This document shows positions 1,546 to 26,730 of a stretch of DNA of 26,730 nt, piece after piece. Origin of the DNA: a virus; the IMG/VR virus record IMGVR_UViG_3300042924_004399, positions 1 through 26,730 of that record; one strand, given 5' to 3'. Each line of letters begins with the position of its first letter. The stretch's first letter is position 1. The position numbers and the translations under genes are program-made. The notes below the pieces were generated by a model, which was not told the DNA's origin, made no database searches, and saw only the letters and a list, made by a program, of their open reading frames with translations.

Positions 1546-2190
1546 TCAGCCTCCCTTACGGAATCTTCGAATGCGGTTCTTCTCTTGGCGCCATCGCTGC
1601 TGGGCAGCAAGGGCAAGGTTGTTCATCCCAAGGGCAGAGATGTCTGACGAGCCAGACGAGACCTGCCACTGCTGGTACTGCGCTCGGTCAAAGGTAAGCA
1701 TCGTGAGCGCCTCTGCCTCAACAAAGACCTTGACGGCGTTCTGCGCGGTCGTGTCTAGGTTGGTGATGGAGCTGGTCTGCGCGGTGTTGATCTGCGTCCA
1801 CGGACCATAGCCAACGATGTTGAGCGTACCCGTTCCCACCGCAAGGACGTAGCGGGTTGGGAGATACAAGATTTCTGCATGCGTCTCCCAACCCGAATCG
1901 GGACCATCGCCAGACGAGGGTCGAACCGTCTCACGATATTTCCCGCTGTTGTCATAAACATCAACGCGCACTGGCCACGTCACCGTGGTAAGCGCAACGC
2001 TAAATACCGAGCCGCTGATTGGCTGGGTGAAGGCGGTGGACTGGATTACTTCTGATTGGTAGACATCGCCAATGGCGTCAATGCCACGGTTGATGAGTTC
2101 ACCGAGTTGGCCATCCGACCACGTGGTCCCGTTAGGGTCACGTAGGGAGAGCCGCAGCGAAGTGAGTAGGCTGGAAAATGTGGTGCTCAT
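1546..2190 (-). CDS. Head-tail connector / adaptor protein
   Basis: This 214-residue protein starts at ATG 2190, which overlaps the TGA of the glycosyltransferase gene by four bases (ATGA). Its N-terminus has an amphipathic helical pattern, SSLLTSLRLSLRDPNG followed by WSDGQLGELINRGIDAIGDV, typical of head-completion and adaptor proteins that dock under the portal. The middle is beta-rich and includes a region around LPTRYVLAVGTGTLNIVGYG. A helical region with KVFVEAEALTMLTF follows, and the end is strongly basic (RWRQEKNRIRRFRKGG). The position after capsid and before the tail-tip genes fits a connector. The glycosyltransferase inserted between capsid and this gene is unusual. I do not recognise a precise family. 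Confidence 0.6.
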   Translation of the reverse strand: MSTTFSSLLTSLRLSLRDPNGTTWSDGQLGELINRGIDAIGDVYQSEVIQSTAFTQPISGSVFSVALTTVTWPVRVDVYDNSGKYRETVRPSSGDGPDSGWETHAEILYLPTRYVLAVGTGTLNIVGYGPWTQINTAQTSSITNLDTTAQNAVKVFVEAEALTMLTFDRAQYQQWQVSSGSSDISALGMNNLALAAQQRWRQEKNRIRRFRKGG

Positions 2191-3419
2191 GCGATCTTGG
2201 CTCCTTTGCCTTTATTCTCGGCTGCCCATTTGAAGGCGTCAGCCCATTCCTTTGCTCGATCTTTGTAGTGATATTCCTTTAGCACACGCTCACGCGCCGC
2301 ACCTGCGAGTTGTTCTCGTAGATCCTTGCTGCGTGTGAGCTTCTTCATTGCGTCGTACCATTCGCCGCGACCACGGGCAAGCATTCCGTCTACCCCTTCG
2401 CGGACCATTTGGTACGGACCATCGCCACGGAACCGCTCGCCAATGAAGGCGGCACCCGTCATGGCGTACTCAAGCCAGTGGAGTTCAGACTTGGCTTGGT
2501 CAAAGTCATCGCCCATCAGTGGGGCAATGCCGATGTCTGGGTGGGTATTGGCAAGGGTCTCGCAAAACTTCTGGATGCCCTCAACGTAGCCATACTGCTC
2601 TTGGAAGAACTGGGCTACGACTGATTCTGTTCCAGGATTTGTTCCGACAAAGACGGTCTGTAGTTCCTTGCGAAGGTCTGTCACTGCCTTGCCAGCGTAT
2701 CCGCCAGCAATCTTGTTGCGTGGTCCCTCTGGGTATCCAGCGTAGTCTCGGAGTCGAGCGGTGCTGCCGTAGTAGACAACCCGTGGCTTGTCCCCTGCTG
2801 GACGATCAACCGTTGGCTTGTACAAGTCGGGGTCAATGGCGTTTTTGATGACGCGGATATTGTCATTGAACCGTGCGTAACGCCGAGCAATGGTGCTGGT
2901 AGAGGTGGTGAGCAAATCGGCACGCTTGGCCATTGCCTCAATCATTGGGTACTCTGGTACTACATCTTTGATGTAGCCGTTCCACGGTCGGATGTTGAAG
3001 TGGTCATCGTCGGTCTCGTAGATGATTGCCTTGCCGTGCTTGGCGTACTGGAAGGTGGGCCAGAGGAGCCGCGTAATAAGGTCGCGCTCTTTCCAGCCGT
3101 GCTCATGCTGCATTGCCTCTGCGTAGGAGAAGGTCACGAATGGACACGCTTCATCCTTGCAGGAAATTGTGGTGTTGTAGTAGCGACGGAAGACGACGAC
3201 ATCTGCCCAGTCCACATCGGAAGTGTCAAAGTCCACAAGGCCTTTAGCCACTGCTTCGGGAAGGAGTAGTTTCTCCCCGCCCTCTTTGATCTTCATTCCG
3301 ACCTTGTTCAGACCGCGATACTCTACGCCGAGCTTCTTGAGTTCTTCGGTAAACTGGTGACCACGGAAGTAGGCACATGGCCCTTCCTCAACGTGTCCCC
3401 AAACTAGGACTTTCAGCAT
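2187..3419 (-). CDS. GT4-like glycosyltransferase
   Basis: This is a predicted sugar transferase of about 410 residues with a two-Rossmann (GT-B) pattern. The N-terminus MLKVLVWGHVEEGPCAYFRG is a typical first strand and glycine-rich loop. IIYETDDDHFNI and a segment ending VIKNAIDPDLYKP resemble conserved parts of family-4 enzymes. The C-terminal half has VVYYGST and a DIGIAPL segment, then an EYAMTGAAFIG stretch where the EX7E-type nucleotide-sugar region would lie. ATG 3419 is preferred over an in-frame GTG at 3446, because AAGAGGG lies five bases before the ATG and a small hairpin lies between the two. It is separated from the capsid gene by a terminator-like hairpin and overlaps the adaptor. 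Substrate is unknown; virion glycosylation or changing host surface sugars are both possible. Confidence 0.78.
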   Translation of the reverse strand: MLKVLVWGHVEEGPCAYFRGHQFTEELKKLGVEYRGLNKVGMKIKEGGEKLLLPEAVAKGLVDFDTSDVDWADVVVFRRYYNTTISCKDEACPFVTFSYAEAMQHEHGWKERDLITRLLWPTFQYAKHGKAIIYETDDDHFNIRPWNGYIKDVVPEYPMIEAMAKRADLLTTSTSTIARRYARFNDNIRVIKNAIDPDLYKPTVDRPAGDKPRVVYYGSTARLRDYAGYPEGPRNKIAGGYAGKAVTDLRKELQTVFVGTNPGTESVVAQFFQEQYGYVEGIQKFCETLANTHPDIGIAPLMGDDFDQAKSELHWLEYAMTGAAFIGERFRGDGPYQMVREGVDGMLARGRGEWYDAMKKLTRSKDLREQLAGAARERVLKEYHYKDRAKEWADAFKWAAENKGKGAKIA

Positions 3420-3460
3420 ATCGACCCTCTTGTGGCTAAGTGCCACCTTGACCCTTTTTG

Positions 3461-15381: not shown

Positions 15382-15677
15382 GCCTTGTTGCGCTTGCTGA
15401 TCGCGGCTGCCTTTGCACGGGCATCCGTCTTGCTGCTGGCGCCCCAAGCCTGAAGACTAAGGAGCAAGCGCGTCGGTCGACCTTTCTCGTCGCGCTCAGG
15501 ACCAGGCATACCGCCCATACGGGCGAGGAAAGAGGCTCGTCGCGGATTATCTCCGCTCTTGACTGGAGCCTTCAGCGTGCCGCCAGTCTGCGCCTTGTAG
15601 GACGCACGACCCTTGGCATTCAATCCGCCCTGCGGATTCTTGCCTTCCTTGCGTTGCCATGCAGCACTCTTGGGCAT
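15378..15677 (-). CDS. Small basic phage protein next to terminase
   Basis: This 99-residue, strongly basic protein has the pattern MPKSAAWQRKEGKNPQGGLN, then a KGRASYKAQTGGTLKAPVKS segment and RRASFLARMGGMPGPERD. I recall similar short proteins beside terminase genes in aquatic phages, annotated only as domains of unknown function. ATG 15677 overlaps the stop of the GT2 gene (TAATG), and its TGA overlaps the terminase TTG. Its position and basic charge would suit a DNA-binding packaging accessory, including a small-terminase role, but nothing shows this directly. Confidence 0.6.
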   Translation of the reverse strand: MPKSAAWQRKEGKNPQGGLNAKGRASYKAQTGGTLKAPVKSGDNPRRASFLARMGGMPGPERDEKGRPTRLLLSLQAWGASSKTDARAKAAAISKRNKA

Positions 15678-16216
15678 TACTTCACCTCATTGTGGGAATA
15701 TAGGACTTTGGGTACGAACTCAATCTTGCCGCTAAGTGCGGCCAGTCGATTGATGAAGGTGCCGTCCGCTTCGTAGTGGCGGTCGGTGTAGCCAGCCTTG
15801 CGAGCGTAGCTGGTCTTGGCAATGTAGTTGCCAGAAGTGGATTGACCAAGAGCAAAGGACGGGGTGTGGTTCTTGCTCCAGCCGCAGTATATCACATCTG
15901 CGCCACCTGATGCAGATTCCATCATTTCTTGGATGAAGGTCTGGTCGTAGGAGTCGTCGTGATTGAACCACGCGGTGTATTCAGATGTCGCCAGGTCAAG
16001 CCCCTTGGCCCTCTTGTCGTGACCCCAATCGTTGAGGTTGGGTTCTTCGTAGAACCTGACCCACGGAAACCGCTGCCAAACGCCCTCAAGGTTAATCTTA
16101 GAGCAGAGAGCAATGATTTCATCAGGCTTCTGGGTTTGCTTGCCCAGCAGCTCCAGGATACGAACAAGGTTCTCCGAGTCCGCATGAGCAGTTACCACGA
16201 CGGTGATGCTCGCCAT
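15677..16216 (-). CDS. Short GT2-like glycosyltransferase
   Basis: This 179-residue protein has a GT-A nucleotide-sugar fold pattern. The first strand reads MASITVVVTAHADSENLVRI. A second QTQKPDEIIAL segment follows, and SEYTAWFNHDDSYDQTFI carries an HDD at 86-88 where the metal-binding DxD normally lies. An aromatic ending with a late YEADGTFINRLAAL helix is also consistent. It is shorter than most GT2 enzymes (about 220-300), so it may be a minimal catalytic domain. The start is chosen by a GGGAGAATC ribosome-binding site before ATG 16216, which lies inside the end of the upstream nucleotidyltransferase frame. The two probably serve one sugar-modification pathway; substrate unknown. Confidence 0.72.
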   Translation of the reverse strand: MASITVVVTAHADSENLVRILELLGKQTQKPDEIIALCSKINLEGVWQRFPWVRFYEEPNLNDWGHDKRAKGLDLATSEYTAWFNHDDSYDQTFIQEMMESASGGADVIYCGWSKNHTPSFALGQSTSGNYIAKTSYARKAGYTDRHYEADGTFINRLAALSGKIEFVPKVLYSHNEVK

Positions 16217-16640
16217 TGATTCTCCCTATAATGTCGCTGGTGGAGATGCCAGCGGTATATGGAATGTACAACATCTCGATATCTTTGGTGTCTAGCCAAT
16301 GCTGGCTGATGTTGAGTTGGGTCAGAAGGCTATTGCCAGTCCAGTCATCGCCGTGGGCAATGTACTTGATTGTGCAATCACGCGGCATTGCGTCAATGGT
16401 GACCCAACTGTCTTCGTTGCCAATGTTGACGACAACCTTGTCCACGAATCGACACGCATCCAGCGCATCGTAGCGTTCTGCCAGAGAGAGGATTGGTCGC
16501 CGCTTATACCGAGCAGCAAACTGGTCTGTGTTGAGGGCAACGATTACCTTGCCGTACTCCGCGCACTTGCTGAGGAAGTTGATGTGTCCAGAGTGGAACA
16601 GATCAAATGTTCCACCGACATAGACCCACTTGTCGGGCAT
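16122..16640 (-). CDS. Cytidylyltransferase-like nucleotidyltransferase
   Basis: This enzyme likely activates an alcohol or sugar phosphate with CTP, as in glycerol-3-phosphate cytidylyltransferase (TagD-like) or related ADP-heptose synthases. The signature GGTFDLFHSGH lies at 9-19 and the second motif GISTSDIIGRI at about 131-141. The 172-residue frame continues 31 codons past that motif, and those codons overlap the following glycosyltransferase by 95 bases in another frame. This tail is Gly-, Cys- and Pro-rich and unlike the family, which normally ends soon after the ISTS helix. ATG 16640 overlaps the lysin stop (TAATG). Together with the GT2 gene it suggests a surface-polymer or virion-decoration step. 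Confidence 0.8.
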   Translation of the reverse strand: MPDKWVYVGGTFDLFHSGHINFLSKCAEYGKVIVALNTDQFAARYKRRPILSLAERYDALDACRFVDKVVVNIGNEDSWVTIDAMPRDCTIKYIAHGDDWTGNSLLTQLNISQHWLDTKDIEMLYIPYTAGISTSDIIGRINGEHHRRGNCSCGLGEPCSYPGAAGQANPEA

Positions 16641-21825: not shown

Positions 21826-22572
21826 TTAGCGCCCTCGGCCCTTAAGTAGTCGGTCAATCTTTGCGGCGCCAGCATCGGTTACCTTCATGCCACGCTTTGC
21901 AGCAGACTGCTTGACTTCGCTAATACCGCTCTTGCTTGGTACCCGCTTGCTAAACTCATTAAACTTTGTCTTGAGTTGATTCTTGACTGGCTGAATTCCA
22001 GCAGCAGATCGCCAATTTCCTTCGCCAAATGGATCTGCAAGAACATCAAATGTTCGCTTTTCTCCAGGCGGGAGGTTTCCTTTTGGAAGTCTAGGGAAGA
22101 CGTCAATCTCAGATGTCATTCGGGAGGTCTCACCCTTTGTAATCAAACCAGATTTACGATTCCCCTTGTTGAAAGTCCTTGTCGCTTCATCAAGAGCGGC
22201 AGCTCGCTGAGAGATCGCGTACTCTTTACCGAACGCTTGACCAGCCTTCTTTGCTGCGACTCGACCCAGCAATTGATTTGCTACGCCAAATTTGCCAGCA
22301 GCCTTCAATGCTTGTCCAGCCTTGAATACCTTGCCAACTGGCAGGGCCATAGCGAGAGAGGCAGGGTCTACCTTGAGACCCTTACGGCTGGCGCTGAAGA
22401 TACCCTGGGTCAGCACCTCACCAGCGTCCTTGAGGCTAATGCTCTTGACGCCAGAGGCGGAACCCGTGAGGGGTGCGCCGTACTTCAGCTTCGTTGCAAT
22501 ACCCTCTGAGCGGCCAGTCAGTCGACGGGCGGTCCCAGAGGTGCGGTTCATTTCCTTCTTCTTTGCCATCAT
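21826..22572 (-). CDS. Lys-rich protein, longer member of a tandem paralogue pair
   Basis: This 248-residue protein shares its first 110 residues with the gene just upstream. Both begin MAKKKEMNRT.GTA.R (this one with an extra Met) and carry LTGSASGVKSISLK.AGE.LTQGI, then LAMALP.GKV.KA. The C-terminal half is unique (EIDVFPRLPKGNLPPGEKRT, WRSAAGIQPVKNQLKTK) and basic. The two ATGs sit in a TAATGATGG junction. The DNA around both starts is nearly identical. A virion or DNA-condensing role is possible for these basic, Ala/Lys-rich proteins, but function is unknown. Confidence 0.6.
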   Translation of the reverse strand: MMAKKKEMNRTSGTARRLTGRSEGIATKLKYGAPLTGSASGVKSISLKDAGEVLTQGIFSASRKGLKVDPASLAMALPVGKVFKAGQALKAAGKFGVANQLLGRVAAKKAGQAFGKEYAISQRAAALDEATRTFNKGNRKSGLITKGETSRMTSEIDVFPRLPKGNLPPGEKRTFDVLADPFGEGNWRSAAGIQPVKNQLKTKFNEFSKRVPSKSGISEVKQSAAKRGMKVTDAGAAKIDRLLKGRGR

Positions 22573-23012
22573 TACTTCCTTCTCGATGGTAGGCGTGGGA
22601 ACACACCCTCTGATCGAACTCTTGATTCTCGTGCAAACTCAACAGGCTCGTCAAAATAAGAAAACTCTCTTCCGATTTTTTGACCCTTGATCTTTGCTGC
22701 CGCTCTTGCCGCTAGCCCCGCTGCCTGATCTGTTTTTCCAGCGGCACGAAGCACCTTGGCAGCCTTGACGACCTTGCCCAATGGCAGGGCCATAGCCAAG
22801 CCCTCTGGGGCGAACTGGAGCTTCCCGCCACGGGTCGTGACGATGCCCTGCGTGAGGGCTTCACCAGCCTGCTTAAGGCTGATGCTCTTGACGCCAGAGG
22901 CGGAGCCAGTTAATGGCTTGCCCGTCTTCATACCAAAGCGGACTTCTTCCGCCTGGCTGATCTTCCGCTTGGCTGTGCCAGCGGTGCGGTTCATTTCCTT
23001 CTTCTTTGCCAT
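22572..23012 (-). CDS. Lys-rich protein, shorter member of the tandem paralogue pair
   Basis: This 146-residue basic protein is the shorter paralogue. The shared N-terminal block (KKKEMNRTAGTAKR, then PLTGSASGVKSISLKQAGEA) is followed by an Ala-rich helical part (LPLGKVVKAAKVLRAAGK) and a short FPRLPSRRK end. That end parallels the FPRLPKGN region of the longer copy, so the short copy looks like the same protein truncated at the FPRLP motif. Its TAA overlaps the next ATG. Function unknown. Confidence 0.6.
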   Translation of the reverse strand: MAKKKEMNRTAGTAKRKISQAEEVRFGMKTGKPLTGSASGVKSISLKQAGEALTQGIVTTRGGKLQFAPEGLAMALPLGKVVKAAKVLRAAGKTDQAAGLAARAAAKIKGQKIGREFSYFDEPVEFARESRVRSEGVFPRLPSRRK

Positions 23013-23014
23013 GA

Positions 23015-23287
23015 TTACTTCATACCTTTTCGGCCCTTTGGTTTAATGATCTTATTCTTTGGAACATCCGCGAGCACTTTACCCTGCTCGTTTACTGCAA
23101 CACGCACGTTGTCTACGATTTTATAGGTTGGTCCGCCGCCAACGTACTTGCCATTGGCCGTTGCTGGCATTTTAGAACCCTTGCTATTGTTATCGGTACC
23201 CTTGTAGATCGAAGGCTTCCCTGGCTTTGGCTTGCCTGGTACTGGCTTTGGGGTCTTCTTCCCCATGAGAATCTTGCCCTTTGGCAT
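23015..23287 (-). CDS. Small basic protein, first gene of the leftward unit
   Basis: This 90-residue, Lys/Pro/Gly-rich protein starts at ATG 23287 with AAGGAG six bases before it. It contains KTPKPVPGKPKPGKPSIYKG, a short strand region YKIVDNVRVAVNEQGKVL and a basic end KNKIIKPKGRKGMK. As the promoter-proximal gene of the whole leftward unit it is probably well expressed. The composition suits a DNA- or capsid-bound protein. Not recognised. Confidence 0.6.
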   Translation of the reverse strand: MPKGKILMGKKTPKPVPGKPKPGKPSIYKGTDNNSKGSKMPATANGKYVGGGPTYKIVDNVRVAVNEQGKVLADVPKNKIIKPKGRKGMK

Positions 23288-23317
23288 TTAAAACTCCTTG
23301 GGTTTCCCCATTCTTAA

Positions 23318-23335
23318 TCTGGCCTAGCGGCCAGA
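23318..23335 (-). promoter_or_regulatory. Stem-loop in the leader of the leftward unit
   Basis: TCTGGCC and GGCCAGA arms (7 bp) with a four-base loop lie about 30 bases before the first leftward start codon. A stem at this place in the 5' leader could stabilise the long message or act as a binding site. No U tract is present. Confidence 0.45.
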
Positions 23336-23402
23336 GCGAACTCTATTGAGTGAGAGACCGTTCTTACGGAGGGTGAGTTCGTTGCCCCCTCTGTGTCTCC
23401 CC

Positions 23403-23435
23403 CATATAACCAGAAAAACGGGGGGTTTATGTCAA
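23403..23435 (-). promoter_or_regulatory. Tentative leftward promoter
   Basis: A perfect TTGACA occurs on the minus strand (23435-23430), about 140 bases upstream of the first leftward gene. The best -10-like hexamer, TATATG at 23408-23403, is 21 bases away, which is too far for a normal sigma-70 promoter. A phage-specific or activator-dependent promoter is possible. Confidence 0.3.
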
Positions 23436-23445
23436 AAATAACATC

Positions 23446-23461
23446 ATTAAGATGTCTTAAT
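23446..23461. promoter_or_regulatory. AT-rich 16-bp palindrome, operator candidate
   Basis: ATTAAGATGTCTTAAT has 7-bp perfect arms around a TG centre. It lies just upstream of the minus-strand TTGACA, where a regulator of the leftward unit could bind. It is the longest AT-rich palindrome in the intergenic region. Confidence 0.5.
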
Positions 23462-23652
23462 CTTTATGAGGGAGGCTGTCGAGCACAACTTAACAGCTCC
23501 GCGTTAACAGATTGGGGTGAAAGCCTAGTCAAAAGGGGGGTGGCCTTATCAGAAGGGGTGTTCATTGCGGGGTTGGGTATTCCTAGCCCGCGCACGCCCC
23601 GCCCTCGAACCGCTACGGGGGGAGGGGGGGCGGCACAAATCGTGCCAACCTA

Positions 23653-23716
23653 CGACAGGGGCGCTTGTCGGCCAGCGACAGGGTAGCTTGTCGGGGGGCG
23701 ACAGGGTAGCTTGTCG
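23653..23716. repeat. Three 18-bp hyphenated palindromes with 23-bp period
   Basis: Units start at 23653, 23676 and 23699. The consensus is CGACAGGGTAGCTTGTCG; unit 1 differs by GGGGCGCT in the middle and units 2 and 3 are identical. Each has CGACA/TGTCG arms around an 8-base centre. The exact 23-bp spacing over non-coding DNA is typical of iterons for a replication initiator or of multiple operators. The core AAGCTACCC recurs in the opposite orientation near 23851. Confidence 0.8.
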
Positions 23717-23742
23717 AGGGGGGTAGGGCGGGCAGGGTAGGC

Positions 23743-23863
23743 GATACCCCCCTCGCCGTACCCGATACCCCCCGCGCCGTTGCAGGGCTAGCCCTCCCGC
23801 CGATCGATACCCCCCCGCCTAGCCCGTACCCGTGCAGGGGCTACCCCCGCAAGCTACCCCCGC
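23743..23863. repeat. C-rich direct repeats (GATACCCCCC, GCTACCCCCGC)
   Basis: GATACCCCCC occurs at 23743, 23764 and 23806, and GCTACCCCCGC at 23840 and 23853. The opposite strand therefore carries several runs of five to seven G that could form quadruplexes. No gene is visible. These may be further initiator-binding or structural sites of an origin. Confidence 0.6.
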
Positions 23864-23965
23864 CGATAGGCCGCCTCGACGTACACCGCCCCCCGCGCAA
23901 CGCTACGCCCCGCGCCCCCCTCGCCGCCATGATTGTATTCCCCCCGCCTCGATCGCCCCGCTACG

Positions 23966-23994
23966 TTGCCCCTAGACCCCTATTGGAATAGAAC
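23966..23994 (+). promoter_or_regulatory. Tentative rightward promoter
   Basis: TTGCCC (23966-23971) and TAGAAC (23989-23994) are 17 bases apart, each matching four of six consensus positions. The -10 lies inside the SOS-box-like palindrome, so binding there would block it. About 120 bases of leader would precede the first gene. Confidence 0.35.
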
Positions 23995-24007
23995 AAACGT
24001 TCTATTC
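23986..24007. promoter_or_regulatory. SOS-box-like 22-bp palindrome
   Basis: GAATAGAAC and GTTCTATTC form perfect 9-bp arms around AAAC. The centre GAAC-AAAC-GTTC matches the known GAACRNRYGTTC LexA box of Bacillus and actinobacteria. It sits 109 bases upstream of the first rightward gene. Host LexA control, or a phage repressor with a similar site, is inferred. Confidence 0.65.
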
Positions 24008-24076
24008 TCGATTGTTGCGGAATCTTATCCTTTGCCCCTATTGTCGATCCCGTGCAGGGGGTGTAGGCTAGGGGTA

Positions 24077-24095
24077 GGCGGGGGCTATCCCCGCC
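24077..24095 (+). promoter_or_regulatory. Leader hairpin before the first rightward gene
   Basis: GGCGGGG and CCCCGCC arms (7 bp) with a five-base loop end six bases before the GGGAGGAG ribosome-binding site of the gene at 24116. It is positioned like the other hairpins of this arm but has a different loop. Confidence 0.5.
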
Positions 24096-24115
24096 ACAAT
24101 CGGGAGGAGTAGACT

Positions 24116-24295
24116 ATGGCCGAGGAGTATACCGTTTGGGTGATCGTACCCGTCGAGTACTCGATGACAATCACCGCCGATAGCCTCGACGAGGCGCGGG
24201 AGGCGGTCGAGGATATGGAGGGCGAGGATATCGCCGCCAATGGTTGCGATGAGTCGAAGGGTACGCCCAAGATCCTATCGGTTGAGCTCGCCTAA
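24116..24295 (+). CDS. Small acidic protein, first gene of the rightward unit
   Basis: A 59-residue frame starts at ATG 24116 with a strong GGGAGGAG site seven bases upstream and ends TAA. The sequence begins with strands (EYTVWVIVPVEYSMTI), then ADSLDEAREAVEDMEGEDIA, an acidic helix, and a final strand PKILSVELA. This beta-alpha-beta pattern is common in small phage early proteins with no known function. One Cys is present. Clear ribosome-binding site and codon use like its neighbours support a real gene. Confidence 0.7.
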   Translation: MAEEYTVWVIVPVEYSMTITADSLDEAREAVEDMEGEDIAANGCDESKGTPKILSVELA

Positions 24296-24310
24296 GCGGG
24301 CGACAATAGC

Positions 24311-24335
24311 GGGGGGCGGGATCGACCCGCCCCCC
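24311..24335 (+). promoter_or_regulatory. Intercistronic hairpin A
   Basis: GGGGGGCGGG and CCCGCCCCCC arms (10 bp) with loop ATCGA end just before the GGAGGG ribosome-binding site of the next gene. It is a member of the arm's hairpin family by position and arm sequence, but lacks the AGAAT loop and conserved leader. Confidence 0.65.
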
Positions 24336-24351
24336 TTGGAGGGTATGAATC

Positions 24352-24768
24352 ATGAACGAAGCTCATTCAACATACTACGGGCAGGGGGCGGCGATCGATG
24401 CCGACACCCTCGCCGTGAAGGGGGAACGCACCGACACCGCGACGGTATCGCGGGCGATGGTTCCCGTAATCGAAGCGGGGCGGGGATCGGTTCGCAATTC
24501 GATCCGCACCGTGTGGGATGATGCCGAAGCTAACGGGCTAATCCCCTACGCCGTACACGTGCACGGGGGCTCGATCCCGCCCTACCGCCTATGCATCGTG
24601 CATAGCGTGATCCTCGCCCGTGATGCCGCCCGTGAGGGTTGGATCGATGAAGCGCCCGACTATTGGGAGTCTGGGGAACCCCTTGGGTGTACGTCATGCG
24701 GGGAATGGTACGGGCGGGAGGCGCATTGCGCCTCGTGCCGATGCAACGTCGAAGGGGGACGATCATGA
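24352..24768 (+). CDS. Zinc-ribbon-like small protein
   Basis: This 138-residue protein starts at ATG 24352, preceded by GGAGGG. The N-terminal half has RAMVPVIEAGRGSVRNSIRT and a strand region (YAVHVHGGSIPPYRLCIVHS). The C-terminal end carries CTSCGEWYGREAHCASCRC, a Cys4-type ribbon with extra Cys and His, likely zinc-binding. Its TGA overlaps the ATG of the next gene (ATGA). DNA or RNA binding is possible. No family recognised. Confidence 0.6.
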   Translation: MNEAHSTYYGQGAAIDADTLAVKGERTDTATVSRAMVPVIEAGRGSVRNSIRTVWDDAEANGLIPYAVHVHGGSIPPYRLCIVHSVILARDAAREGWIDEAPDYWESGEPLGCTSCGEWYGREAHCASCRCNVEGGRS

Positions 24769-24926
24769 GGCGCTACCGCGTAGCCTCACTCCGCACGCTT
24801 GCGGAGTATCGAGCGGCGGAACGCCGCGCCCGTATGATCCGCCGCCTATTGTGGGCGGCGCTCATCATCGGGGCGATCGGGGCGCTGGTGATCCCGTGCG
24901 ATCCCCTAGCAGGGTACGCGTGCTAG
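24765..24926 (+). CDS. Small single-pass membrane protein
   Basis: A 53-residue frame starts at ATG 24765, overlapping the previous TGA by four bases, with AAGGGGGA about six bases upstream. A basic N-terminal half (MRRYRVASLRTLAEYRAAER and RRARMIRR) precedes one transmembrane segment (LLWAALIIGAIGALVIP) and a short Cys-containing tail. By charge, the N-terminus is likely cytoplasmic. Small early phage membrane proteins often affect the host envelope or exclude other phages, but nothing here shows which. Confidence 0.65.
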   Translation: MRRYRVASLRTLAEYRAAERRARMIRRLLWAALIIGAIGALVIPCDPLAGYAC

Positions 24927-24929
24927 GGG

Positions 24930-24986
24930 TACAATCGAAGGGGGCGGGAGAATCCCGCCCCGATAGCATGAGGGGAGAATAGAATC
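24930..24986 (+). promoter_or_regulatory. Intercistronic element B (hairpin plus conserved leader)
   Basis: TACAATCGAAG is followed by a 9-bp-arm hairpin (GGGGCGGGA/TCCCGCCCC, 24941-24961) and then a leader shared base for base with element C up to the start codon. The leader contains AGGGGAG nine bases before ATG 24987 and a tiny ATG AGG GGA GAA TAG frame. TACAAT could be a -10 hexamer, but no -35 is seen. Confidence 0.75.
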
Positions 24987-25295
24987 ATGAGCATGAGTAA
25001 ACGGGACTACGTGAAGCTAGCCGATACGCTAGGGCGGGCGGTAGCGGTAGAATCCATCGAGGGGGGCGGCGAGGGTATCCGCGCGGCGGGGGCGGCCTAT
25101 CGGGTAGCCCTAGCGGTAGCCGATACCCTGCACGATAGCGGCGCTACGTTCGACGGGGGGCGATTCCTCGACGCGGTAGCGGTAGCCGCTAGCCGCGCCC
25201 GTAGCGCCCTAGCCGATAGCGGCGGGGGATCATACGGGGCGGGGCGGGCGATCGATGAGGCGCTCGCGCAACGCCGCACGGCTAGCCGATTCTAG
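24987..25295 (+). CDS. Small Ala/Gly-rich helical protein
   Basis: This 102-residue protein starts at ATG 24987 (MSMSKRDYVKLADTLGRAVA); a second ATG two codons later is possible. It is almost entirely helical, with VALAVADTLHDSGATFDGGR and FLDAVAVAASRARSALAD segments and a Gly-rich turn. The pattern resembles small phage proteins of unknown role. CTA and GTA dominate its Leu and Val codons, unlike most GC-rich genomes. Preceded by element B and followed by element C, it forms its own single-gene segment. Confidence 0.65.
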   Translation: MSMSKRDYVKLADTLGRAVAVESIEGGGEGIRAAGAAYRVALAVADTLHDSGATFDGGRFLDAVAVAASRARSALADSGGGSYGAGRAIDEALAQRRTASRF

Positions 25296-25299
25296 GGGC

Positions 25300-25368
25300 T
25301 ACAATCGAAGGGCGGGGGGCGGGAGAATCCCGCCCCCTTAGCCGATAGCATGAGGGGAGAATAGAATC
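25300..25368 (+). promoter_or_regulatory. Intercistronic element C (hairpin plus conserved leader)
   Basis: TACAATCGAAGGG precedes a 10-bp-arm hairpin (25315-25337, arms GGGGGCGGGA and TCCCGCCCCC). A leader follows, identical to element B over 32 bases from 25343 into the first codons of the next gene. It repeats the MRGE-stop mini-frame at 25350 and the AGGGGAG ribosome-binding site. Confidence 0.75.
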
Positions 25369-25707
25369 ATGAGCTTGCAGGATACGCTTGACGCTAAGGC
25401 GCTCGACGACATGAGGGCGATCGAGAAGCTTTACGGGATCATGCTCGACGCGATGAAGCGCGGCAACGCGCTACACGCGGCAACGGCGCGGCGCTTACGG
25501 CGCGAAGCTCGAGCGGCGGCGGCATCGCGGGGGCATCGCATGGCGCGATTCTCGCCCCTGCTACCATCGAAGGGGCTAGGCGGCTATTCCGATGCGGCGT
25601 GCACGGCGTGCGGCGCGGCGGTGAGAATCGAGACTAGCCCCGCCGCTAATAGCATCGACATAGGCGGCGAGGCCGTCGCCGTATCCTGCACGGGGCGGGC
25701 ATCATGA
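25369..25707 (+). CDS. Small protein with C-terminal Cys motif
   Basis: This 112-residue protein starts at ATG 25369. A helical N-terminal half (LDDMRAIEKLYGIMLDAMKR and a basic ARRLRREARAAAASRG) is followed by GYSDAACTACGAAVRIETSP and IDIGGEAVAVSC. It has CxxCG and a later Cys, suggesting a small zinc ribbon. Similar GGxAvxxxC endings occur in short phage proteins, from memory. Its TGA overlaps the next ATG (ATGA). Confidence 0.62.
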   Translation: MSLQDTLDAKALDDMRAIEKLYGIMLDAMKRGNALHAATARRLRREARAAAASRGHRMARFSPLLPSKGLGGYSDAACTACGAAVRIETSPAANSIDIGGEAVAVSCTGRAS

Positions 25708-25964
25708 GCACGGGCGAGGCTATCCGCACGCAAGCGCGGGCGGCGGCTAATAGGCTACTAGTAGCGCGGCGCGATGGCGGCGAGGCCGCCGCTATCGAGG
25801 CGATACGGCGCGAGGCGGCAACGTTGCCGCTAGAATCGCGGCGGGGATTCTTGCAGGGCGTAGCCTATGCAAGCTTCTTGCCCGCCGATTATGTCGACAC
25901 CTACGGCGCGAGGGCGGGAGAATCCCGCCCCGTAGCCGATAGCATGAAGGGGGCGCGATCATGA
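25704..25964 (+). CDS. Small helical protein whose end contains the repeat element
   Basis: This 86-residue protein starts at ATG 25704 in an ATGA overlap. The body is helical and basic (AIRTQARAAANRLLVARRDG, RREAATLPLESRRGFLQGVA). The last codons (RAGESRPVADSMKGARS) are the translated hairpin and leader seen between other genes as non-coding sequence. The reading frame thus extends through an element that regulates or precedes the next gene. TGA overlaps ATG 25961. Confidence 0.6.
   Translation: MSTGEAIRTQARAAANRLLVARRDGGEAAAIEAIRREAATLPLESRRGFLQGVAYASFLPADYVDTYGARAGESRPVADSMKGARS
25912..25960 (+). promoter_or_regulatory. Element D, inside a coding end
   Basis: GGGCGGGA and TCCCGCCC arms with GAA between them (25912-25930) are followed by TAGCCGATAGCATGA and AAGGGGG before ATG 25961. 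This is the same order as elements B and C, but with a shorter leader and lying within the preceding coding sequence. Confidence 0.65.
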
Positions 25965-26293
25965 GCAGGGGCTATACAATCGACGCGGCGAGGGTAATCG
26001 TCGAAGCGGCGAAGCTAGGCGGTACGCACGCCGCGATCATCACGCGCTACTACGGCGCGACGAATACACGGGGGGCGCGGATTGTCGCCCGCCTAGCGGG
26101 GGCGGGCAAGCGCCCCCGCGTATCGATCGGATTCCCGTATGAGCTCGACGAGCTTGGCCGCCATACGGCGGCGGCGCTCGCCCTGCTCGATAGCATGAAG
26201 CGCGAGGGCGACGCCTACGCGCCCGTGCTGGTATCGGCGGGCGCTATCGAGGGCGGGTATGCGTTCACAATCGAAACCCTGCCCGCCTATTAG
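25961..26293 (+). CDS. Small protein with YYGATNTRGARIVA motif
   Basis: This 110-residue protein starts at ATG 25961. It contains HAAIITRYYGATNTRGARIV and a following strand RPRVSIGFPYELDELGRHTA, then a helix LALLDSMKREG. A YxGxTNxRGxRIxA pattern recurs in short proteins of many phages and some bacteria, by recall, without a known function. The C-terminal part VLVSAGAIEGGYAFTIETLP is beta-like. It ends TAG shortly before a hairpin and a promoter-like site. Confidence 0.62.
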   Translation: MSRGYTIDAARVIVEAAKLGGTHAAIITRYYGATNTRGARIVARLAGAGKRPRVSIGFPYELDELGRHTAAALALLDSMKREGDAYAPVLVSAGAIEGGYAFTIETLPAY

Positions 26294-26309
26294 GGGGCGG
26301 CACGGCTAC

Positions 26310-26335
26310 GGGGGGCGGGCATGAGCTCGCCCCCC
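26310..26335 (+). terminator. Hairpin, possible terminator
   Basis: GGGGGGCG and CGCCCCCC arms (8 bp) with a ten-base loop containing ATGAGC lie 17 bases after a stop codon and are followed directly by TATTGACA. There is no long U tract. Placement between a gene end and a promoter-like sequence fits a terminator. Confidence 0.5.
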
Positions 26336-26337
26336 TA

Positions 26338-26366
26338 TTGACACCCCGCGCCGCTAGGCGTAGGGT
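26338..26366 (+). promoter_or_regulatory. Sigma-70-like promoter
   Basis: A perfect TTGACA (26338-26343) is followed after 17 bases by TAGGGT (26361-26366), which fits TANNNT. The expected transcript start, about 26373, lies just before hairpin E, so the message would begin with that hairpin. This is the clearest promoter in the window. Confidence 0.6.
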
Positions 26367-26375
26367 ACGGCGTAG

Positions 26376-26412
26376 GGCGGGAGAATCCCGCCAGAATCGA
26401 AGGGGGTAAAGC
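26376..26412 (+). promoter_or_regulatory. Element E (hairpin before next gene)
   Basis: GGCGGGA and TCCCGCC arms around GAA (26376-26392) are followed by AGAATCGAAGGGGGTAAAGC and ATG 26413. The AATCGAAGGGGG string that lies before hairpins B and C lies after this one. Confidence 0.65.
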
Positions 26413-26583
26413 ATGAGCAGGATCGAGCTCACCATCACCCGCACGGCGGGCGTGAACGGCGGCGGCTATCGGATCGCCGCAATGGTAGGCGGCGCGTATG
26501 TCGAGCGCCTATTCTTGGGCTATACGCGGCGCGAGGCCGTGCGCCTATTCCGCGAGGCGGTACGGGCAGGGGGTGTAGCATGA
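26413..26583 (+). CDS. Small basic protein, GYTRREAVRLFRE type
   Basis: A 56-residue frame starts at ATG 26413 with AAGGGGG upstream and ends TGA overlapping the next ATG. It has strands IELTITRT and GGYRIAAMVGGAYVERLFLG, then a helix YTRREAVRLFREAVRAG. A strand-strand-helix layout with a GYT.REA..LFR pattern is common in tiny phage and plasmid proteins, from memory. Function unknown. Confidence 0.65.
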   Translation: MSRIELTITRTAGVNGGGYRIAAMVGGAYVERLFLGYTRREAVRLFREAVRAGGVA

Positions 26584-26730
26584 GCGCGGGCTATACGGCG
26601 ACGTATAACCGCGCTCATACGGGTAAAGCTTGGGCTATCGCGGGCTATACGCTCGACGGCGGCGGGCTATGCACGGCGTGCGCGGATAGCCGCTTCGACG
26701 CGGCGACGCTATCGGGCGAGGCGGGCGGGG
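26580..26730 (+). CDS. Small CxxC protein, C-terminus cut by window edge
   Basis: An open frame starts at ATG 26580 in an ATGA overlap and runs off the window after 50 codons. It reads MSAGYTATYNRAHTGKAWAI, then GYTLDGGGLCTACADSRFDA, with a CxxC that could be half of a zinc site. Composition and codon use match its neighbours. Confidence 0.6.
   Translation, partial: MSAGYTATYNRAHTGKAWAIAGYTLDGGGLCTACADSRFDAATLSGEAGG

Follow-up and report, generated by a model that had tools for sequence, protein, structure and literature searches.

What is the role of the short series of palindromic units found where the two halves of an uncultured phage genome, read in opposite directions, are separated by their only long gap? 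In the window, that is, the whole stretch of 26,730 nucleotides analysed here (a 26.7-kb virus fragment), unit 1 (23653-23670, + strand, CGACAGGGGCGCTTGTCG), unit 2 (23676-23693, + strand, CGACAGGGTAGCTTGTCG) and unit 3 (23699-23716, + strand), which has the same sequence as unit 2, form an array of three 18-bp dyads with perfect CGACA/TGTCG arms and a period of exactly 23 bp. The coordinates, the arms and the period given in a preliminary description of this DNA, as well as the identity of two of the units, were thus reproduced. So was the placement of the array in a non-coding gap between divergent genes, which spans 828 bp (23288-24115) between the start of a leftward gene at 23287 and that of a rightward ORF at 24116, at ~370-400 bp from the array to either gene start. 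The AT content is 30-32% in 50-bp blocks over the array, and its flanks are GC-rich. When the window was scanned for any dyad with 5-nt arms whose same arms are repeated at a constant period of 18-30 bp, this array was the sole match, and dinucleotide shuffling of the gap (300 times) or of the window (12 times) never produced one. A possible reading of 23393-23686 as coding was rejected, as indels in L019 and L031 disrupt the frame, which more distant relatives do not keep.

Relatives were collected via the terminase, via a tandem-pair pattern (two units in 23-bp phase) and via blocks of the control region. The terminase has 80 relatives in the viral collection and no match in the phage-isolate collection, and no bacterial genome matched the terminase profile. 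No known phage relatives were found with the gap sequence, and the core pattern had no match in the bacterial genomes searched. Only five contigs of the viral collection carry the tandem pair; the terminase of four is 96-99% identical to that of the window, and the fifth (L008) has the same control region. From 40 copies in 17 contigs, collected by position, a 16-letter consensus GACA(A/G)G-N4-(C/G)TTGTC was derived. Each genome has 2-4 copies spaced by 22 or 23 bp, apart from one 74-bp gap that separates two pairs in G004, and in all 12 contigs that carry the motif it is confined to the array locus (one mismatch allowed). Thus, place, form and phase of the array, whose conservation in relatives the preliminary description had proposed to check, are kept at a single locus. 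The 40 copies compared also share one orientation: A-to-G changes at the fifth arm position number 17 in the left arm against one (as the complement) in the right, and C-to-G or C-to-A changes at the inner position number 9 in the right arm against none in the left. Since the contigs are related, these counts lack independence. The arrangement is therefore real and conserved, and it is familiar in kind. The same comparison disposes of a half-unit, GGGTAGCTT, previously described in reverse orientation near 23851. The letters AAGCTACCC are indeed present at 23851-23859, but the stretch gcaagctacccccgcc is kept in G001 and G012, whose units are without GGGTAGCTT, and it does not contain the conserved GACA(A/G)G / CTTGTC, which refutes its assignment as a half-site of the array.

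The divergent control region, delimited by the gene starts and by conservation (23288-24115), contains several further elements. Its non-coding positions 23305-23554 are 91-96% identical to the window in eight relatives, as against mostly 10-50% for the flanking genes, and nowhere in the neighbourhood is conservation stronger than in the non-coding DNA around the array. Within it lies a hairpin element (23315-23444), recognised by compensatory changes, with stems at 23318-23335, 23336-23343 with 23375-23382, 23399-23403 with 23420-23424, and 23430-23443. Six pairs changed on both sides, and 95% of cells are paired, compared with 35-48% when the alignment was slid. The strand of the element was not assigned, because wobble evidence was seen for both strands. 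The element, which has equivalents in L033, L040, L045 and L065, contains a near-invariant loop, ATATAACCAG. The element had no match in Rfam, and no known RNA family or tRNA was found in it. A loose pattern of the hairpins gave 76 matches in the viral collection, which is not above a rough chance estimate, and matches were therefore kept only when accompanied by further conserved blocks. This conserved structured element may be a more unusual feature than the array beside it.

Nearer to the array, a conserved core with direct repeats GGGTRTTC (GGCCTTATCAGAAGGGGTGTTCATTGCGGGGTTGGGTATTCCT, 23542-23584) occurs once per genome and is retained even in relatives that lack the array. Directly left of the array is a dyad, GGCAC-AAATC-GTGCC (23632-23646), and GGCAC-N5-GTGCC recurs in the equivalent region of several relatives. 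To the right, a G-run motif with the potential to fold into a quadruplex (23718-23737, + strand) was found in 9 of 15 sequences scanned. Ahead of the first rightward gene, the dyad GAACAAACGTTC (23991-24002), of the form GAACRNRYGTTC, resembles the SOS box consensus of B. subtilis, CGAAC(n)4GTTCG (PMC4551915). The window, G001, G002, G003, G009, G011, G012 and L045 all carry GAACRNRYGTTC in their divergent region. The sites are concentrated there (L095:2454 and 2479 and L073:2355 among them), and in G003 and G009 they form a tandem with 25-bp spacing. Consensus likeness suggests that these sites serve a host LexA of the Gram-positive type. As in LexA-controlled phages, an SOS box, here GAACRNRYGTTC as identified by sequence likeness only, thus lies in the early control region.

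The array is the point from which two gene arms diverge. To the right are numerous small genes and the gene for a DnaB helicase; the leftward arm contains the structural genes and, further on, genes for Erf annealing protein and for a Cas4-like exonuclease. The rightward arm (24116-26730) has a GC content of ~62-68%, compared with ~55% in the structural arm, and its genes are very short and packed. The leftward arm opens with two paralogous neighbours (21826-22572 and 22572-23012) that are 49% identical. Sugar-modifying genes, including glycosyltransferases and genes of cytidylyltransferase-like and dTDP-sugar epimerase type, were observed within the structural arm at 2187-3446, 15677-16216 and 16122-16640, and at L090:4413-4976. 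In relative G002, a C5-cytosine DNA methylase (L093:14200-15216) is encoded downstream of dnaB, and the contig ends overlap within dnaB, indicating a circularly permuted genome of ~40 kb.

Based on these features, we consider that the array consists of operator-like tandem sites for a putative dimeric regulator, phage- or host-encoded, in a central divergent control region, a reading whose chances we judge to be about even. A putative dimeric DNA-binding protein would occupy the three dyads, and the 22-23 bp phase, equal to two helical turns, would align its dimers along the same face of the helix, making cooperative binding possible. The bound complex would most likely act on transcription, controlling either or both of the divergent arms, namely the small early genes and dnaB to the right and the structural genes to the left. 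We infer this transcriptional role for three reasons. Firstly, the more distant relatives L045, L065 and L145 keep the hairpins and the core with the array missing, and G010 (the contig of L065, the one such relative checked) has dnaB without the array, so that the array behaves like a regulatory module that can be exchanged without loss of the helicase or of the other parts of the region. Secondly, the flanks of the array are GC-rich. Thirdly, the SOS-like boxes suggest a regulatory region. The array has tandem dyads at a constant spacing of about two turns, as operators do, but several observations weigh against this assignment: the phage proteins scanned (most ORFs) included no recognisable member of a helix-turn-helix or repressor family, although a divergent one could escape; a simple sigma-70 promoter scan gave nothing above chance; no second operator cluster was found elsewhere in the genome; and the distance to either gene start is large for an overlapping operator. 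Co-occurrence of the array with early genes picked out no single binder, and among the titles and abstracts listed by a literature search for the motif there was no phage array of such a kind. Because the cognate gene is missing, the array cannot simply be filed as an operator. The preliminary description had seen in it a binding array for an initiator or repressor; a protein-binding array is still the best reading, but neither kind of gene was recognised among the proteins scanned.

The main competitor, which we regard as possible but clearly less probable than the operator-like reading, is an iteron-type origin, at which a phage or host initiator would bind the dyads and load the phage DnaB. 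Like iterons, the units are direct repeats in uniform orientation and fixed phase at a single locus, and the phage carries dnaB, but G010 keeps dnaB without the array. A conserved AT-rich block (23405-23454) lies within the same region, and in lambda two iterons and the AT tract suffice for unwinding (PMC7466680), but this block, the nearest one, is ~200 bp from the array, and the flanks are GC-rich. The preliminary description had proposed to look for an adjacent or distant initiator gene; none was recognised among the proteins scanned (most ORFs), and the gene just upstream of dnaB, considered as a candidate, gave a predicted model with no recognisable match to an initiator fold. GC skew had likewise been proposed as a check, with loss of the array in related phages and lack of a skew change named as grounds against the reading. 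The array is conserved and the skew does change sign at it, but the flip coincides with the divergence of the gene strands and does not demonstrate an origin. Since both an adjacent AT-rich element and an initiator are missing, the array cannot be filed as an origin either.

Two further readings appear improbable. In one, GACARG/CTTGTC stem-loops in a putative rightward transcript would act as tandem RNA hairpins, bound by protein or affecting RNA polymerase. The changes at the fifth arm position do keep G-U pairing in + strand RNA (17 G-T and 22 A-T versus 1 A-C), and covarying hairpins lie upstream, but related sequences are counted repeatedly here, the loops are variable with no tetraloop consensus, and the inner pair is broken by G-G or G-A in 9 of 40 copies. 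In the other, which we hold equally doubtful as a whole, the entire 828-bp region would be one composite of an undescribed kind, serving an extrachromosomal phage as an origin and switch that needs no initiator and is controlled by RNA or SOS, and combining the structured element (RNA or hairpin DNA), the oriented dyad array and the host SOS boxes. Least probable of all is an array for packaging (pac) or one that resembles a centromere (parS). ParB or terminase sites can be tandem dyads, and the contig ends overlapping in dnaB fit circular permutation, but no ParA or ParB was found among the proteins scanned (most ORFs) and 8 kb separate the array from the gene for the large terminase.

On the favoured operator-like reading or otherwise, the array shows where the central control locus lies in an uncultured phage family, one for which the phage collection searched contains no terminase match, and it provides exact sites with which the cognate regulator or initiator could be sought. 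Among the few clues to the host type are the SOS-box-like sites.

In lambda, OR1-OR3, bound by CI and Cro, are three dyads ~23-24 bp apart. The present array resembles OR in having three dyads of similar length and spacing in a divergent control region, and differs from it in that no CI/Cro-like gene and no second operator cluster were found and overlap with a promoter is only conjectural.

At the lambda origin, the iterons bound by the O protein are imperfect inverted repeats, two of which suffice for unwinding when combined with the AT tract, and DnaB helicase takes part in phage replication (PMC7466680). Tandem imperfect-dyad iterons and a DnaB helicase are common to both systems; different from lambda, the array lies outside any initiator gene, with no adjoining AT-rich tract, and no O-like protein was found. 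The cluster A mycobacteriophages Alma and RedRock have RNA-based prophage origins, and the account of how these were identified describes no repeated motifs in them (PMC7157519). As far as that account goes, the likeness lies in a conserved structured non-coding region of a phage genome in which no RepA was found; the difference is that no parABS was found here, among the proteins scanned, and that a non-coding RNA is only conjectural. As regards a temperate lifestyle, no integrase was seen among the proteins scanned. Promoter P1 of Bacillus phage GIL01 has host LexA sites (PMC4551915); the motif of the present array is no SOS box, and yet the region around it shares with that phage an SOS box, here a putative one, in the early control region.
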